Shown here: positions 15,802-31,605 of the stretch, one piece after another
Layout of the letters: each line of letters begins with the position of its first letter
Numbering within the stretch: the stretch's first letter is position 1
Origin: a virus
DNA: 31,791 nt
IMG/VR virus record: IMGVR_UViG_3300029309_000184
Coordinates: 1-31,791 of that record
Strand: one strand, 5' to 3'
Translations under genes and position numbers: made by a program
Notes under the pieces: generated by a model
The model's database searches: none
Told to the model about the DNA's origin: nothing
The model's input: the letters and a program-made list of their open reading frames with translations, nothing else

Positions 15802-16791
15802 CTATATTATTAATTGTCCGTTTTTATCGTACCAATCTATATTTACATAACTCCATTGATGACGGCAGTTATACCCACCTCTAACTATAAATGGATCTCC
15901 GGGTTTTTTACCTTTCCAAGATGTAGCCCATATTTTTCTGACTTCATCAACTGTAAATATATTACCAGCACGTTTACTATATACACCATTAATTACATTT
16001 CTACAAATTGATCTAGTTGTGGGAATAATATCACCAGAATATTTTACATATTCTAATCCTGCGTCTAATGCCTTTTTTGCATTTACTTGCGCATCAAATT
16101 CCCTTAATCCATCATTTAGAATCTGACTCGCATATCTTCTCATATTCTCTCCAGCTCTATCTCTCCCAAATTTAGATTGTAAAGTTTGAACTGCTTTATC
16201 AACTCTTACTTGCATAGATTTTTTATTTTTATTTTCTTTTACAAAATCTACGAGCTTTTGAGCTTCTCTATCATCTGTCTTACTATAAATACCATTGATA
16301 GTTTGTCTTAATTCTTTTTCTAATTCTACAAAATCTCTACCAACTAATGTGTTTTGATAAATCTTATCTGATAATCGTTTTGTAAATGTATTAGAAACAT
16401 CTTTGAATTGTGTATATGTTTGAACTTTAAGATTCTTAATTAGATTCAAATCTCCCTTTGTAAGTTCTTGAAATTCAATAGGAATATTTCCTATTTCTTT
16501 AAATGCTCTTTCAATTCTTTTAGCTTGTCTATTAAATCCTTTTTTCGTTACTGTATCAGCCCATTTAAGGTATTCTGTATTTAGAATAGTTCTAATCTTT
16601 GGTCTTATTGCTATTGCCGCTTGAAGTTCTATTAATTTTCCGGCTTGTGTAGGAAGGTCTCGTCCAGCAAGTTTTACAACATCATCTTCTATCTTATCTA
16701 ATGTTCTTTGGAGTGTTCTATAATATTCTTGTTCAGCTCTATCTAAATTTCTAATTCTATAATTAGTAAATCTTTCAACTTTATCAGCCAT
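15802..16791 (-). CDS. Phage head morphogenesis protein, SPP1 gp7/MuF-like
   Basis: 329 aa. A long helical front half is followed by the MuF-type domain at the C-terminus: RSICRNVINGVYS at 260-272 and GYNCRHQWSYVNI at 306-318. Cys263 and the Cys/His/Trp of GYNCRHQW are the standard family signature. These proteins enter the head together with the portal and affect DNA ejection. It overlaps the portal stop by one base and is followed by the scaffold gene. No toxin domain is fused to it. Confidence 0.85.
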   Translation of the reverse strand: MADKVERFTNYRIRNLDRAEQEYYRTLQRTLDKIEDDVVKLAGRDLPTQAGKLIELQAAIAIRPKIRTILNTEYLKWADTVTKKGFNRQAKRIERAFKEIGNIPIEFQELTKGDLNLIKNLKVQTYTQFKDVSNTFTKRLSDKIYQNTLVGRDFVELEKELRQTINGIYSKTDDREAQKLVDFVKENKNKKSMQVRVDKAVQTLQSKFGRDRAGENMRRYASQILNDGLREFDAQVNAKKALDAGLEYVKYSGDIIPTTRSICRNVINGVYSKRAGNIFTVDEVRKIWATSWKGKKPGDPFIVRGGYNCRHQWSYVNIDWYDKNGQLII

Positions 16792-18197
16792 TAAACTGTT
16801 TCTTCTTGAACATTTTCTTCTTGAACTTCATCTTCAGTAAACTGCCCAACTTCATTTTGACTATCAACTTCATCAAAAGCTTGTGAAAGTTTTTCATCGT
16901 CATCAATTACAGATCTTATTATTTCTTTATCAATCTCTTTATTAAATGTTGGAGATTCAATATTCATAGCTTTTGCCATTGAATAGAATTGTAGATCTGT
17001 CGCATAATCTTTTATGTTAAAAGAATCTGGGTAGTTGATCTCTCCATCAAATTCTCTATTTTGGAATTGTGCATATAATCTAAATATTTGTTCTTCTGCT
17101 AATTCTAAATTATCTGCTTTTTCTGATAATCTTGCATTTAATAATTCAAATTCTGTTTGAAGTGCTATTCCTGAACTGACTTGTTGCTTCGTAGTTCTAA
17201 TAGCTCCTGTATGTGCGATTCTATTTATAGCTTCAACTTTATGTCTTATTGAATCCATTATTGAATTTAAGTTTGCTCCGGATGGTTGTAGTAAATAAGG
17301 TTTTAAATTAGGTTCTATTTCTTCAGGCATTTCAATAACGGCTCCAGCTCCAGCACTTGCATTTACACTTGGAGTCTTAACTAATGAAGGATGATTAGTT
17401 AATCTTATTAATTGTTCTATTTCAGAATATTCATTGTAAATAGATTTTTGTAAATCTGCTATATCTGCCAAGTCAGAAATTCCTATACCTCTTTTATGGC
17501 TTTTGGAATTATATAAAATAACTGCTGGTATTTTTCCGACTTGGTTAACGGCAGTATCTATTGTAGCTGGTGGTTCATTATCCTTTTGATAGATTGTATC
17601 AACTCTATCAGGAAACCACATTCTCATATAGATCCCACCATCCTTATCTACTTCCTCTCTTATCTTTAAATAATCAAGATAATATTTTCCATTTACTTCT
17701 CTTTTAAAATTCCAATCTAAAACATTTTCTGGTGTAACGATTGATATGTAAGGTCTTATTTCTTGATTTAATTCTTCAGCTCTTGTTCTTGCTTGGATAG
17801 ATGGTTTATCCAAGATCATAAAACAATGTCCATAAATAGATGCGTAATTTTGAGCTTCTTTGATTACATTATTGAAACTACTTCCATCTAGATCTGCATC
17901 TTTTAAAAATGATTCTAAACTGACATCTTCCGCTAAAGATCCAAAATCTCTTGAAGGTTTTGCTCTAAATAAAAAGGATGAATATATTTGAATGATATTT
18001 TTACAATGATTATCGCAAGGTGTGTTTGCAAGTCTTTGATTGAACTCATTATCTAATTCTAGATTGTATCTATTAAGATATTGCCCATTTGTAAAATCTG
18101 TTCCGCCCAAATAAGATCTTATAAAATATTCCCATTGAGCTACTGTTTCTTTGTAATCTTTATGAGTATCTAGTGCCTCGTCTTTTGTGTATGCCAT
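16791..18197 (-). CDS. Portal protein
   Basis: 468 aa. The order of elements is that of small siphovirus portals: an N-terminal helical clip (DYKETVAQWEYFIRSYLGG), the phrase NIIQIYSSFLFRAKPSRD, a wing (ENVLDWNFKREVNGKYYLDY, IYMRMWFPDRVDT), a stem/crown region (LQKSIYNEYSEIEQLIRLTN, KQQVSSGIALQTEFELLNAR) and an acidic tail (DEVQEENVQEETV). It has the look of DUF4055-type portals, though I cannot confirm the subfamily. It forms the twelve-part ring for DNA entry and binds the terminase. The gene overlaps the terminase by 38 bases. Confidence 0.8.
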   Translation of the reverse strand: MAYTKDEALDTHKDYKETVAQWEYFIRSYLGGTDFTNGQYLNRYNLELDNEFNQRLANTPCDNHCKNIIQIYSSFLFRAKPSRDFGSLAEDVSLESFLKDADLDGSSFNNVIKEAQNYASIYGHCFMILDKPSIQARTRAEELNQEIRPYISIVTPENVLDWNFKREVNGKYYLDYLKIREEVDKDGGIYMRMWFPDRVDTIYQKDNEPPATIDTAVNQVGKIPAVILYNSKSHKRGIGISDLADIADLQKSIYNEYSEIEQLIRLTNHPSLVKTPSVNASAGAGAVIEMPEEIEPNLKPYLLQPSGANLNSIMDSIRHKVEAINRIAHTGAIRTTKQQVSSGIALQTEFELLNARLSEKADNLELAEEQIFRLYAQFQNREFDGEINYPDSFNIKDYATDLQFYSMAKAMNIESPTFNKEIDKEIIRSVIDDDEKLSQAFDEVDSQNEVGQFTEDEVQEENVQEETV

Positions 18198-20097: not shown

Positions 20098-20255
20098 AAA
20101 ACTTTACCTTTATTAATACCTTCTTTAATCATATATTTATGTGTTCCATTTCCATTAATATTAACTTCTTTTTTGTTTTTATTTAATGTTTTAATTAATC
20201 TATCTTTTTTGATTTGTTTTATAAAATCAATAAATTGTCTATTAATTCTTTCCAT
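20094..20255 (-). CDS. Basic 53-aa protein
   Basis: ATG at 20255 opens a 53-codon frame: MERINRQFIDFIKQIKKDRL, a linker rich in Asn and Lys, then GTHKYMIKEGINKGKVL. It fills the only gap between two genes and overlaps both: its start lies 14 bases inside the upstream gene and its TGA overlaps the next ATG (ATGA). That coupling makes it a real gene rather than chance. Positively charged, no Cys, no membrane helix. Function unknown. Confidence 0.65.
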   Translation of the reverse strand: MERINRQFIDFIKQIKKDRLIKTLNKNKKEVNINGNGTHKYMIKEGINKGKVL

Positions 20256-20643
20256 TAGCTCTTACCTTATCTTTAACTACTTCTAATTGCTCCATAATTT
20301 TTTCTACATCTTTTTGAAGTCTTTGTATATTTACTTTATTATGCATCATTGATTCCATTTGTTCTTGAATCTTTTCTACATCTTTTACAAGATCTTCAAT
20401 TAATAAAAATTGTTCTGAATCTGCTGGAAGTGATCCTAGTTCTCCAAGTGGCCATTTTATTCTAAATTCAGTATTCATTTCAATATCTTTAGAATTTAGT
20501 TTATTCTGTGTTTCTAATACATTGATTCTTTCAATCACTCCAAATCCAAACCAAGCTCCAACAAGACAAGCTCCAATTATTGTAATTAAATTTCTAGCCG
20601 GAAGCTGAATACCTGTGGAATCGGAGAGCTCTAGTTTCTTCAT
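20242..20643 (-). CDS. Membrane-anchored coiled-coil protein
   Basis: 133 aa. After a 16-residue cytoplasmic start, residues 18-36 are one transmembrane helix (NLITIIGACLVGAWFGFGV). The rest projects outward and contains two coiled-coil stretches (LIEDLVKDVEKIQEQMESMM and LQKDVEKIMEQLEVVKD). This build is like an inner-membrane spanin or a holin-associated anchor, but it lies far from the endolysin. Similar proteins are widespread in marine phages as hypotheticals. Lysis is a guess; membrane topology is well supported. Confidence 0.6.
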   Translation of the reverse strand: MKKLELSDSTGIQLPARNLITIIGACLVGAWFGFGVIERINVLETQNKLNSKDIEMNTEFRIKWPLGELGSLPADSEQFLLIEDLVKDVEKIQEQMESMMHNKVNIQRLQKDVEKIMEQLEVVKDKVRANGKN

Positions 20644-20918
20644 ACATTAAAACCTTTTCGCCAAGCTTTCATACTCCAAAATGCCGGACTCAAACTCTTT
20701 TGCCCTTTTACTCTTTTTAAAACTCCACCCATACGAGCTAAAAATGATCTTTGACGAGCTGGAATATTTTTCTTTATACTCATGCCACGAAAACCAAATC
20801 TTACTATTTGAACATTATTTGTTCTGTTATTTCTCACATAAACTGCAAATTTTTTTGTTCCTTTAGCAGATCTAAAAGGTTTATTTAATTTTACTGATCT
20901 TCCTCTATATTTTGCCAT
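20640..20918 (-). CDS. Basic protein, conserved in marine phages
   Basis: 92 aa, about one-third Lys/Arg. It has the order KYRGRSVKLNKPFRS, FAVYVRNNRTNNVQIVRFGF, GMSIKKNIPARQRSFLARMG and PAFWSMKAW. This order follows a family I know from phages and giant viruses (VYVKDPKTGKVKKVxFG, IKRDxPxRRxSFRARHxC, YWSCKxW). In the usual members two Cys are present where this protein has Met/Gly, so a metal site appears lost. The function of the family is not established; a nucleic-acid-binding virion or assembly role is plausible. ATGA overlap with the membrane protein downstream. Confidence 0.6.
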   Translation of the reverse strand: MAKYRGRSVKLNKPFRSAKGTKKFAVYVRNNRTNNVQIVRFGFRGMSIKKNIPARQRSFLARMGGVLKRVKGQKSLSPAFWSMKAWRKGFNV

Positions 20919-21133: not shown

Positions 21134-21330
21134 CTCAAAGTTCTAGGTCGCCATTTATTACAAACATAGGTATCTCGTACACCTCTTGTTCTAAATTGAA
21201 AACAGAATGAATGTTTTCTTGAAAAAACTCCACAGCTCCCACAGCTATATTTACCTTGTGAAGGTCTAAAATCCTGTGGCATCCTTCTTGGAATAAATTC
21301 TCCATTTGGATAAAAGTTAGATCGTTTCAT
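21130..21330 (-). CDS. Small four-cysteine (zinc or Fe-S) protein
   Basis: 66 aa with Cys30, Cys33, Cys43 and Cys57 in the order CGSC, FCFQF and YVCNKWRPR. Four cysteines in a small basic protein suggest a zinc ribbon, or possibly an iron-sulphur site as in high-potential iron-sulphur proteins. It has a basic, Pro-rich front (PRRMPQDFRP) and overlaps both neighbours by ATGA. Family not certain. Nucleic-acid binding is the simpler reading. Confidence 0.6.
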   Translation of the reverse strand: MKRSNFYPNGEFIPRRMPQDFRPSQGKYSCGSCGVFSRKHSFCFQFRTRGVRDTYVCNKWRPRTLR

Positions 21331-21467
21331 CTACCCTGACCTCTATATCTTTTTCTATGAAATTCTTTTGTATTTTTATTAGGTCTTTTAGAGTGCCTTC
21401 CGGGTCTTTTTTTACGAGTCCTTTTGACATAATTAGATACACCGAATAAAGGTCTTTTTTTAGCCAT
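21327..21467 (-). CDS. Basic 46-aa protein
   Basis: ATG at 21467 lies eight bases inside the TerS gene, and the TGA overlaps the next ATG. Translation begins MAKKRPLFGVSNYVKRTRKK and ends KEFHRKRYRGQGR, with KRPGRHSKRPNK between. The phrases KRPGRHxK and YRGQGR recur in small proteins of marine phages, so I regard it as a real conserved gene. Over 40% Lys/Arg/His; probably binds nucleic acid or is carried in the virion. Function not known. Confidence 0.65.
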   Translation of the reverse strand: MAKKRPLFGVSNYVKRTRKKRPGRHSKRPNKNTKEFHRKRYRGQGR

Positions 21468-29875: not shown

Positions 29876-30073
29876 CTAATTGAGAACTGTGTAGAGAAGG
29901 TGTGTTACTGCAATCAAACAGATCGTCCACATAACTTTTTCCATTCTTGAAACTCTTAAATCTAAATGATGTAAATGATTTCCACGAATAGTTTGAATCT
30001 CGTGTTTTAGAAGTGCTATCTCACCTTCTATACGGATTAAATGTTCTTTATTTTTTTGACTTGATGTTGCCAT
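29876..30073 (-). CDS. Small coiled-coil membrane protein, XhlA-like
   Basis: 65 aa. Residues about 8-45 are a coiled coil (RIEGEIALLKHEIQTIRGNH) and residues about 48-64 form one C-terminal membrane helix (VMWTICLIAVTHLLYTVL). This build (tail-anchored coiled coil of about 70 residues) is like XhlA-type proteins that help holins. It sits between the basic cluster and the phosphoesterase, in the lysis area. It may assist holin function. Assignment by architecture only. Confidence 0.6.
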   Translation of the reverse strand: MATSSQKNKEHLIRIEGEIALLKHEIQTIRGNHLHHLDLRVSRMEKVMWTICLIAVTHLLYTVLN

Positions 30074-30077
30074 AAAA

Positions 30078-30341
30078 TTATCTTCTTTTTCTTTTAATAG
30101 CTCTTCTTACTATATCTTTATCAAAAGTGCTAGATCTTCCTCTAGCGATCATTTTGTTGACTCTGCCCATTGACCAAGCCGCCATAGAAACTCTCCTTGA
30201 TCCCCCCCCAAGAAATGCACCTTGGCCTCTCCGATAGATGGCTTTTAGATCTGCAAAGTTAAATAGTTTTGATTTTTTTGCTTTAGCTCTTAATGTTCTT
30301 GTAGTTGAAGCTGATAGAGGTTTTCTAAATTTTCTTGCCAT
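30078..30341 (-). CDS. Basic protein, conserved type
   Basis: 87 aa, about one-third Lys/Arg. Core phrases: FNFADLKAIYRRGQGAFLGG, GSRRVSMAAWSMGRVNKMIA, and ends RAIKRKRR. The order LxxxYxRGxGA, GSRxxxSxxxWxxxRVNxFI is familiar to me from cyanophage and other phage proteins of a DUF with unknown role (perhaps DUF5824). A structural or DNA-binding role is plausible. First and largest of a run of seven basic genes. Confidence 0.6.
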   Translation of the reverse strand: MARKFRKPLSASTTRTLRAKAKKSKLFNFADLKAIYRRGQGAFLGGGSRRVSMAAWSMGRVNKMIARGRSSTFDKDIVRRAIKRKRR

Positions 30342-30529
30342 TATGCTTTTGTCCTTCTATTGAGTAGATCTCTTGGAATGAATCCACCGGATCTGTATAT
30401 AGAAGAAACTTTTCTAATGAGTCTTGCTCTTCTCATTCTTTTAGATCCTTTAAGACCTGACAGATATTTTTTAGGTAATCCTGTCTTTTTATCTTTTGGA
30501 ACGCTTTTTCTTCTTTTTTTTCTTGCCAC
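30341..30529 (-). CDS. Basic protein with GTG start
   Basis: 62 aa starting with GTG, with GGAG eight bases upstream. MARKKRRKSVPKDKKTGLPK, then KYLSGLKGSKRMRRARLIRK and GGFIPRDLLNRRTKA. TGLPKKYLSGL resembles a motif in basic phage and giant-virus proteins of unknown function (TGxPKKYxxGL). More than 40% of the residues are Lys or Arg. It is overlapped in another frame by the 37-aa gene upstream. Likely nucleic-acid binding; function unknown. Confidence 0.6.
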   Translation of the reverse strand: MARKKRRKSVPKDKKTGLPKKYLSGLKGSKRMRRARLIRKVSSIYRSGGFIPRDLLNRRTKA

Positions 30530-30602
30530 TTCTTCTTCTCCGTTTCATAGGAAATTTATCTATCATTTCCCTTAAAGTTGTTGTTGTTGTAAATCCACTC
30601 AT
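30489..30602 (-). CDS. 37-aa polybasic microprotein
   Basis: ATG at 30602 follows GGGAGAG by five bases and overlaps the previous stop (TAATG). The translation is MSGFTTTTTLREMIDKFPMK, then RRRRSG, seven Lys and RSKR. A small ordered head carries a tail of nearly pure Arg/Lys. The tail is encoded in the same 41 bases as the start of the 62-aa gene, in another frame, so the polypurine stretch encodes two basic tails at once. I judge it real because of its ribosome site and coupling, but the overlap leaves some doubt. Confidence 0.5.
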   Translation of the reverse strand: MSGFTTTTTLREMIDKFPMKRRRRSGKKKKKKKRSKR

Positions 30603-30763
30603 TAAGCTCTCCCACCATATTTTCTAGACTTAACTTTCTTTCCTTTAAACTTCCCTGATTTTCTTGGAAGTAATCCTCTTGCTACTGCTGAAGCTCTCTC
30701 TGTTGCTCCAAGTCTTTTTTTATTTCTTATCTTGTTTTTTAATAAAGATAATTTAGGTTTCAT
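30602..30763 (-). CDS. Basic 53-aa protein
   Basis: ATG at 30763 overlaps the previous stop (ATGA), and the stop TAA overlaps the next start. Reads MKPKLSLLKNKIRNKKRLGA, then TERASAVARGLLPRKSGKFK and GKKVKSRKYGGRA. Clean 53-codon frame with no competing frame. Lys/Arg-rich with one short Ala-rich helix. Probably nucleic-acid or virion associated; no name for the family. Confidence 0.65.
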   Translation of the reverse strand: MKPKLSLLKNKIRNKKRLGATERASAVARGLLPRKSGKFKGKKVKSRKYGGRA

Positions 30764-30942
30764 TTTCCAGTATTCTTAAGTGCAATTCTGTGAGCTTGAG
30801 AAAAATTTTTTCCCTTTTTCATAGCTCTAGCCATAGATCTCATATGTTTCAAACTATGATGTTTTGCGTGTGATCTCATAGTTTTTTGTTGTCTAGGTTT
30901 AAGATCTTTAATTATATTCTTTATGGATGCTACTTTAACCAT
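30760..30942 (-). CDS. Basic His-rich 60-aa protein
   Basis: 60 aa: MVKVASIKNIIKDLKPRQQK, then TMRSHAKHHSLKHMRSMARA and MKKGKNFSQAHRIALKNTGK. The SHAKHHSLKHMRSM helix and the KGKxFSQAHxxAxKxxGK end recur in small proteins of marine phages as I remember them. High in Lys, His and Met. Possibly a metal- or DNA-binding factor or a small virion component. Chained by overlap to genes on both sides. Confidence 0.65.
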   Translation of the reverse strand: MVKVASIKNIIKDLKPRQQKTMRSHAKHHSLKHMRSMARAMKKGKNFSQAHRIALKNTGK

Positions 30943-31013
30943 TATCTTTTCTTTTTACCTTTTTTCTTTTTTTTCTTTTTCTTTTTAGTCATTCCACCGT
31001 AGTGATAAGGCAT
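30942..31013 (-). CDS. 23-aa polylysine microprotein
   Basis: ATG at 31013 overlaps the previous stop (TAATG), and its TAA overlaps the next ATG. The peptide is MPYHYGGMT followed by nine Lys, Gly, three Lys and Arg. The aromatic head MPYHYGGM is very like the MPY-G starts of small proteins in marine phages. It is the shortest gene proposed here; the chained TAATG junctions on both sides support it. Confidence 0.5.
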   Translation of the reverse strand: MPYHYGGMTKKKKKKKKKGKKKR

Positions 31014-31111
31014 TATTTCCTCGCTTTCTTTTTTTTAGTTTGTTTCTGTTTTTTCAATATAGCTTTTTGTAAAGCTAAAGGCAATTTCTTTTGTTTCTTT
31101 GTTAAAACCAT
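31013..31111 (-). CDS. 32-aa basic microprotein
   Basis: ATG at 31111 overlaps the endolysin stop (TAATG). Reads MVLTKKQKKLPLALQKAILK, then KQKQTKKKKARK. An amphipathic helix (LPLALQKAILKK) with a basic tail, like an antimicrobial or membrane-active peptide. It is directly behind the endolysin gene, so a part in lysis is conceivable. No family known. Confidence 0.5.
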   Translation of the reverse strand: MVLTKKQKKLPLALQKAILKKQKQTKKKKARK

Positions 31112-31605
31112 TATGCTACTACCACTCCCTTCTCCCAATTCATATCAGGTAATCCATTCAAATAATCAGATCCATCATAAGTCATAACTTGTTTTCTATT
31201 TGATCCTTTTTCATTATAACTAACGTGTATCCAACCACTATTAATATCTTGTTTATTTTTAGGTTTCCAAAATTCTAAAATTAATTGATCAAAATCACAG
31301 TTGTTTTGAATCCAATAAGCTACTTTAATATTTGGAACTCCGAATATTTCAAAATCCGCCGCTTGACCTTTTGCGTGTTGACTCGTCTTTTTGCTACCGA
31401 TAGCTTCACATAATTCTTCACTTCTATATCCTGAAGTTATTGTAACTGATTTATCAAAATGATTTCTGACCGGCTCTAATACACAATAACATAGATCTTC
31501 AAGATTTTTTATATCACCTGATCCGGGTGTATTATCTATACCTTTTCGGATAGCCGTCATTGACTTTGTAAATTCTTCTAATTTAAAATGTTTTGATAGT
31601 TGCAT
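31111..31605 (-). CDS. Endolysin, M15-type peptidase
   Basis: 164 aa. SGYRSEELCEAIG (58-70) precedes SQHAKGQAADFEI (75-87) with zinc ligands His77 and Asp84, and GWIHVSYNE (124-132) gives His127. This is the Peptidase_M15_3 signature of L-alanyl-D-glutamate or D-alanyl-D-alanine endopeptidases, cutting peptide cross-bridges in the wall. No signal peptide, so it needs the holin. All ligands are present. It has a good GGAG ribosome site (GGAGATTTAATG) and opens the downstream run of basic microproteins. Confidence 0.9.
   Translation of the reverse strand: MQLSKHFKLEEFTKSMTAIRKGIDNTPGSGDIKNLEDLCYCVLEPVRNHFDKSVTITSGYRSEELCEAIGSKKTSQHAKGQAADFEIFGVPNIKVAYWIQNNCDFDQLILEFWKPKNKQDINSGWIHVSYNEKGSNRKQVMTYDGSDYLNGLPDMNWEKGVVVA

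Follow-up and report, generated by a model that had tools for sequence, protein, structure and literature searches.

Seven consecutive short genes for strongly basic peptides, designated A to G here, lie beside the endolysin gene in a 31,791-nucleotide stretch of viral DNA (the window), and judged by their substitution patterns all seven are conserved genes under purifying selection, the frames of only 23 and 32 codons included. Relatives usually carry the set within their capsid and packaging genes, so that its most likely task is to bind the DNA of the phage inside the head, not to aid in bursting the cell. On balance we favor a reading in which A to G encode accessory proteins of the head that are made late, bind nucleic acid and are probably packaged together with the DNA; we infer late expression because the genes lie in late modules and DNA binding because the peptides are so highly charged, and a location in the virion likewise. 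The window makes up most of a virus record of 32,052 bases and is kin to the cultured Pelagibacter phages HTVC202P, HTVC112P, HTVC026P and HTVC111P; it comes from a SAR11 (Pelagibacter) phage related to HTVC111P and HTVC202P.

The locus is transcribed from the minus strand in the order M15 endolysin, G, F, E, D, C, B, A, a 65-residue TM-like protein and a phosphodiesterase. The endolysin gene (31111..31605), which adjoins G upstream, was correctly named in a preliminary description made from the sequence, and matches Pfam Peptidase_M15_3 (E=7e-19) and the endolysin family phrog_894 (E=4e-47). G (31013..31111 from an inner ATG, 32 residues, net charge +14) consists of the motif LTKKQKKLPxALQKAIxKKQK and a Lys tail, and F (30942..31013, 23 residues, +13) of the motif MPYHYG followed by polylysine. 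E (30760..30942, 60 residues, +16) matches phrog_31838 (E=2e-5) and is followed by D (30602..30763, 53 residues, +19) and by C (30489..30602, 37 residues, +15), in which the motif GFTTTxTISELIxKRP precedes a basic tail. B (30341..30529, 62 residues, +22) starts with GTG and matches phrog_38321 (E=2e-8) and the N-terminal half of Pfam DUF5824, while A (30078..30341, 87 residues, +24) matches phrog_28338 (E=1e-13) and the C-terminal half of the same Pfam family. An ORF check reproduced all of the lengths and overlaps that had been reported for the seven genes, as well as their richness in Lys and Arg, which together account for 28–57% of residues; the net charges of +13 to +24 sum to +123. The reported chaining was also found, with TAATG at five junctions (endolysin/G, where the endolysin stop lies over the G start, G/F, F/E, D/C and B/A) and ATGA at E/D, whereas the last 41 nt of C overlap B in a different frame. 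The 65-residue protein that follows A (29876..30073, minus strand) had been called XhlA-like, a name for which we find no family support: it combines a polar N-terminal part with a C-terminal TM-like segment (max KD19 1.68), gave no significant match in Pfam or PHROG, and is regarded here as a holin candidate. A search of the window against Rfam returned no RNA family, and a scan for promoters and terminators gave a result near chance.

A further member of the set, H92 (20640..20918, minus strand, 92 residues, +25; phrog_7595, E=1e-13), lies upstream of terL in the window. The portal gene (16791..18197, minus strand; phrog_145, E=6e-62) has the head-morphogenesis gene immediately after it, and the cassette that many relatives carry at this place is therefore missing from the window. 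The head-morphogenesis gene itself has no PHROG match and was named from its position and from tblastn kinship; its relative in contig L041 matches a head maturation protease. Two other small genes of this region were recorded. An ORF of 46 residues (21327-21467, minus strand, net +18, beginning MAKKRPLFGVSNYVKRTRKKRPGRHSKR) adjoins the putative small terminase gene, and similar ORFs precede H92 in HTVC202P, 026P, 111P and 112P. Directly after H92 is a 133-residue protein (20242-20643, minus strand; phrog_20984) that carries a TM segment at its N terminus, resembles a coiled coil in the remainder and is possibly an envelope or lysis protein.

An open frame with a high charge proves little in DNA of this kind, since the Markov-shuffled region yielded about 1.1 ORFs of at least 23 residues with a net charge of at least 0.22 per residue in every 2.9 kb. 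Synonymous-site statistics on homologues drawn from up to 20 loci are more telling, and they indicate coding constraint across A to G, with dN/dS between 0 and 0.30. The pooled values are 0.28 for A, 0.30 for B, 0.16 for C, 0.12 for E, 0.18 for F and 0.07 for G (15 sequences), and 0 for D, where the nine variable columns among only four distinct sequences are all third-position and synonymous; these values are rough because the pairs depend on one another, changes at synonymous sites have almost saturated, the sample for D is four and the C/B overlap was included. The neighboring endolysin and phosphodiesterase genes gave 0.12 and 0.16, and pN was smaller than pS in nearly all pairs. Conserved motifs are visible by eye in F (MPYHYG), G (LTKKQKKLPxALQKAI) and C (GFTTTxTISELI), and E has four conserved His residues (H25, H29, H33 and H51) that are invariant in an alignment of 34 sequences from several genomic sites and suggest a metal-binding helical hairpin. 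The remark that simple length filters miss several of the genes holds in the GenBank annotation of the isolates, which in each genome leaves out between one and three basic ORFs that belong to the set or resemble it: F has no entry in HTVC202P or HTVC111P, and HTVC026P lacks entries for F, for G and for an ORF of 36 residues.

In order to place the genes in relatives, a tblastn census was made of loci from IMG/VR and a phage collection, with the identities of portal, scaffold, capsid and terminase genes confirmed against PHROGs. The B-A order is constant and the genomic site varies. The distinct A regions number 194: 130 have head or packaging genes around them, 48 are at the lysis site and 16 show no recognized neighbor, counts that are not unbiased frequencies because the loci were gathered by similarity to A and other cassette genes of the window. 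Within the head group, A is found between the portal and head-maturation genes in 106 regions, between the head-maturation gene and scaffold-capsid in 13, ahead of terL in seven, between terL and portal in two and at other head positions in two. At head sites the gene that follows is usually H92, which adjoins B-A in most of those loci. Contigs L245 and L247 read portal-B-A-..-G-F-E-H92-head morphogenesis, all inside the head module, and Prochlorococcus phage MED4-184 has portal, head morphogenesis, a phrog_2423 protein, F (beginning MPSHYGSMK), B, A, E, H92, a further gene and the major head protein. Each of A, B, D, E, F and G was found in head modules of relatives, and C at the lysis site only; D is rare at the lysis site and common at the head site, mainly after A. 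Where A and B are at the head site, G-F-E-C or F-E-C is usually still beside the endolysin and holin-like genes, and the type of endolysin varies among relatives (M15, lysozyme, others) while the peptides persist. Whatever the site, A occurs exactly once in all 30 contigs longer than 20 kb and E once in 27 of them. The proposal of a shared job for the cluster is well borne out: B-A, often with E, F, G and H92, travels as a group through several sites, with A in single copy in all of the long contigs. Gene order is conserved across many contigs.

The relative HTVC112P, which has neither A, B nor E, carries two unrelated-looking basic ORFs of 35 and 65 residues at the same lysis site (L168:30261-30565), the shorter of them unannotated, which suggests that charge as well as sequence is kept at this place. 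In Pelagibacter phage Hodr, which belongs to a different phage type, a homologue of E and an ORF of 39 residues resembling G lie beside the terminase gene (L172:10533-11529). Homologues of A also turn up on bacterial genome contigs (L371-L374) assigned to bins of Flavobacteriaceae, Opitutae, marine Alphaproteobacteria and Rickettsiales; these are probably phage contigs.

Comparison of the A proteins indicates that the sites exchange genes. The A protein of the window shares 82% identity with the head-site A of L041 and only 49–57% with the A proteins of most relatives that carry the gene at the lysis site. A quick tree of 56 A proteins, built on only 88 columns, places it within a clade of 23 rows (SH-aLRT 99) made up of 18 portal-site members, three lysis-site members including the window and two that were unplaced. 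A lysis-site gene within a mostly portal-site clade implies exchange, and parts of the cassette are, on this sequence evidence, interchangeable between the head and lysis places. The same history would account for the polypurine segment from which two basic tails had been said to be written in different frames. The overlap is real, and it looks secondary: in genomes where B-A is elsewhere, C has 44–51 residues with a different basic tail of its own, and where B-A follows C the tail is shorter and is read from the start of B, the common segment having arisen when B-A was joined behind gene C.

Sequence profiles connect the cassette with known families. B and A joined together align to DUF5824 (PF19141) over positions 1-115, nearly the whole profile, with 30.0 bits against a cut-off of 25, whereas A alone scores 20.3 bits and stays below it. 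In the T4-like phage HTVC008M, gp130 is a cytidyltransferase ending in the B and A halves with the H92 gene next to it, and in Methylophilales phage Melnitz (L379:4203-6155) a single protein combines the cytidyltransferase, the A half of DUF5824 and H92 (phrog_7595). Cytidylyltransferases of this group have been reported in the virion proteomes of S-CREM2 and S-SZBM1, and the S-CREM2 authors consider that theirs may have co-purified (PMC10665884, PMC9146016). We asked if these virion proteins carry DUF5824 and rejected the idea, as both lack it; given this and the possible co-purification, they lend indirect support only. The 46-residue basic family phrog_2423, matched in 427 phage records, neighbors the cassette in several relatives, and in Acinetobacter phage LZ35 (L366:1344-2678) it forms the N-terminal 35 residues of the head maturation protease (E=4e-15), so that it may be a prohead-targeting module. 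Homology between E and phrog_2423 is suggestive only (hhalign probability 49%), and profile comparison of A with E revealed no relation. Neither the profiles of A, B, E and H92 nor one phrog_2423 sequence retrieved a meaningful match among PDB sequences, E reaching zinc fingers only at E values of 0.3–7.

Taken together, these observations are best accommodated by a kit of late, nucleic-acid-binding microproteins that would serve head assembly and DNA packaging. The peptides most likely enter the prohead, where their Lys/Arg tails would bind the packaged DNA; the short conserved part of each may act in targeting or docking while the basic part touches DNA phosphates, like the internal proteins of T4. 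Gene neighborhood would count for a role in the head rather than prove a location in the virion, and our literature search found neither a virion proteome of HTVC111P-type phages nor expression data for this phage group. Three points count against the packaged reading. The available charge is limited: one copy of each of the seven peptides supplies +123 against 64,104 phosphates, so that tens of copies of each would be needed for even 10% neutralization (50 sets give about 10%). The quartet G-F-E-C stands beside the lysis genes in most of the head-site genomes examined. In some viruses capsid charge scales with the size of the genome, and tailed phages with packaging motors have been placed outside that group (PMC7096446); their motors are not thought to require protein condensers. 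A more far-reaching version, in which A to G, H92 and related micro-cations form a DNA-condensing kit of interchangeable genes that shuttles between head and lysis modules and acts as a counter-ion system for packaged DNA, is accordingly held as a speculative and rather doubtful extension.

Three tasks had been suggested for the cluster beforehand, namely packaged DNA-condensing peptides, RNA-binding takeover factors and membrane-active lysis helpers, and the head and packaging neighbors favor packaged DNA binding. They would suit equally a related explanation, that the peptides act in morphogenesis by binding to DNA, terminase, portal or scaffold and are then absent from the mature virion, and the position of B-A, most often directly after the portal gene or beside the head-maturation gene, agrees with it. 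Such transient factors appear unlikely to us, as a large number of separate basic peptides would be more in keeping with a DNA ligand needed in stoichiometric amounts than with a factor that acts catalytically. A role in host takeover, as binders of ribosome, RNA polymerase or nucleoid, draws on the readiness with which small Lys/Arg-rich proteins bind RNA and on the almost pure polylysine tails of F and G; since the neighbors are structural and lysis genes in nearly all contexts, with no early module, this suggestion found no support here and is improbable.

The lysis proposal, that the peptides are disruptin-type helpers which break the outer membrane, has the location of the window's cluster in its favor: the overlap of the endolysin stop with the start of G, and the fact that in many genomes G-F-E-C keeps its place next to an endolysin or holin gene although B-A lies elsewhere. 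Disruptins are cationic amphipathic peptides that are needed for lysis in some phages lacking spanins (PMC12819732). In A to G no TM segment was found, and the most amphipathic 15-residue window has a negative mean hydrophobicity in all seven; moreover, six of the seven lie inside head modules in relatives, away from endolysins, and the peptides are retained when the endolysin is swapped for another type. The proposal is thus weakened, and we consider it very unlikely. An origin of some of the frames by chance, through an A-rich coding strand that opens basic frames, would fit the yield of the shuffled sequences and the position of the C tail in a purine run common to B, and its likelihood is close to negligible, being largely refuted for A to G by purifying selection in seven frames, conserved motifs and an order kept across many contigs.

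The preliminary description knew of no system of this shape. This stands for the kit as a whole, its spread over several sites and its exchange, which are undescribed in the literature and databases searched; it does not stand for the parts, since PHROG families for A, B, E and H92 exist already and B with A amounts to Pfam DUF5824. None of these families has an assigned function, and no paper naming DUF5824 was found in the literature search. If the proposed role is correct, a function class (head/DNA accessory) would be available for the widespread, functionless families DUF5824 and PHROGs 28338, 38321, 31838 and 7595; standard annotation of abundant marine phages would be seen to lose several conserved genes from each genome; and neutralization of packaged DNA by encoded peptides in tailed phages would become a testable question. 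Should the condensing kit be real, the small tailed phages that infect the ocean's most abundant bacteria would use protein counter-ions that are thought unneeded in tailed phages.

Among known systems, DUF5824 is related by sequence: B and A together cover nearly its whole profile, and both halves are fused in HTVC008M gp130, whereas here they are two coupled genes of 62 and 87 codons with Lys/Arg-rich ends and no cytidyltransferase domain. In working terms the closest analogy, without membership of the class, would be the T4 internal proteins IPI, IPII and IPIII, small proteins that enter the prohead through a short N-terminal targeting sequence (PMC7697877, PMC3012670) and whose lysines contact the phosphates of packaged DNA (PMC3012670). 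A to G are likewise basic, with conserved N-terminal motifs in F, G and C. The window copy is at the lysis site, and 130 of the 194 distinct regions in relatives adjoin head or packaging genes; no sequence relation to the T4 proteins was found, and the present genes are smaller and more numerous. T7 gp6.7 and gp7.3 (core, nozzle) are also small accessory proteins, belonging to the head or the portal region, and the cited source does not present them as polybasic DNA ligands (PMC11784390). The PhiKT disruptin resembles the peptides in being short and cationic and in its association with lysis (PMC12819732), which applies to the window, but not to A and B of most relatives nor to G-F-E of L245 and L247; disruptins are amphipathic membrane-active helices, whereas A to G have no such segments and in relatives lie mostly at head sites. 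Baculovirus P6.9, a small basic core protein packaged with dsDNA (PMC5899202), comes from an unrelated virus and is unrelated in sequence, and would offer a functional analogy only.
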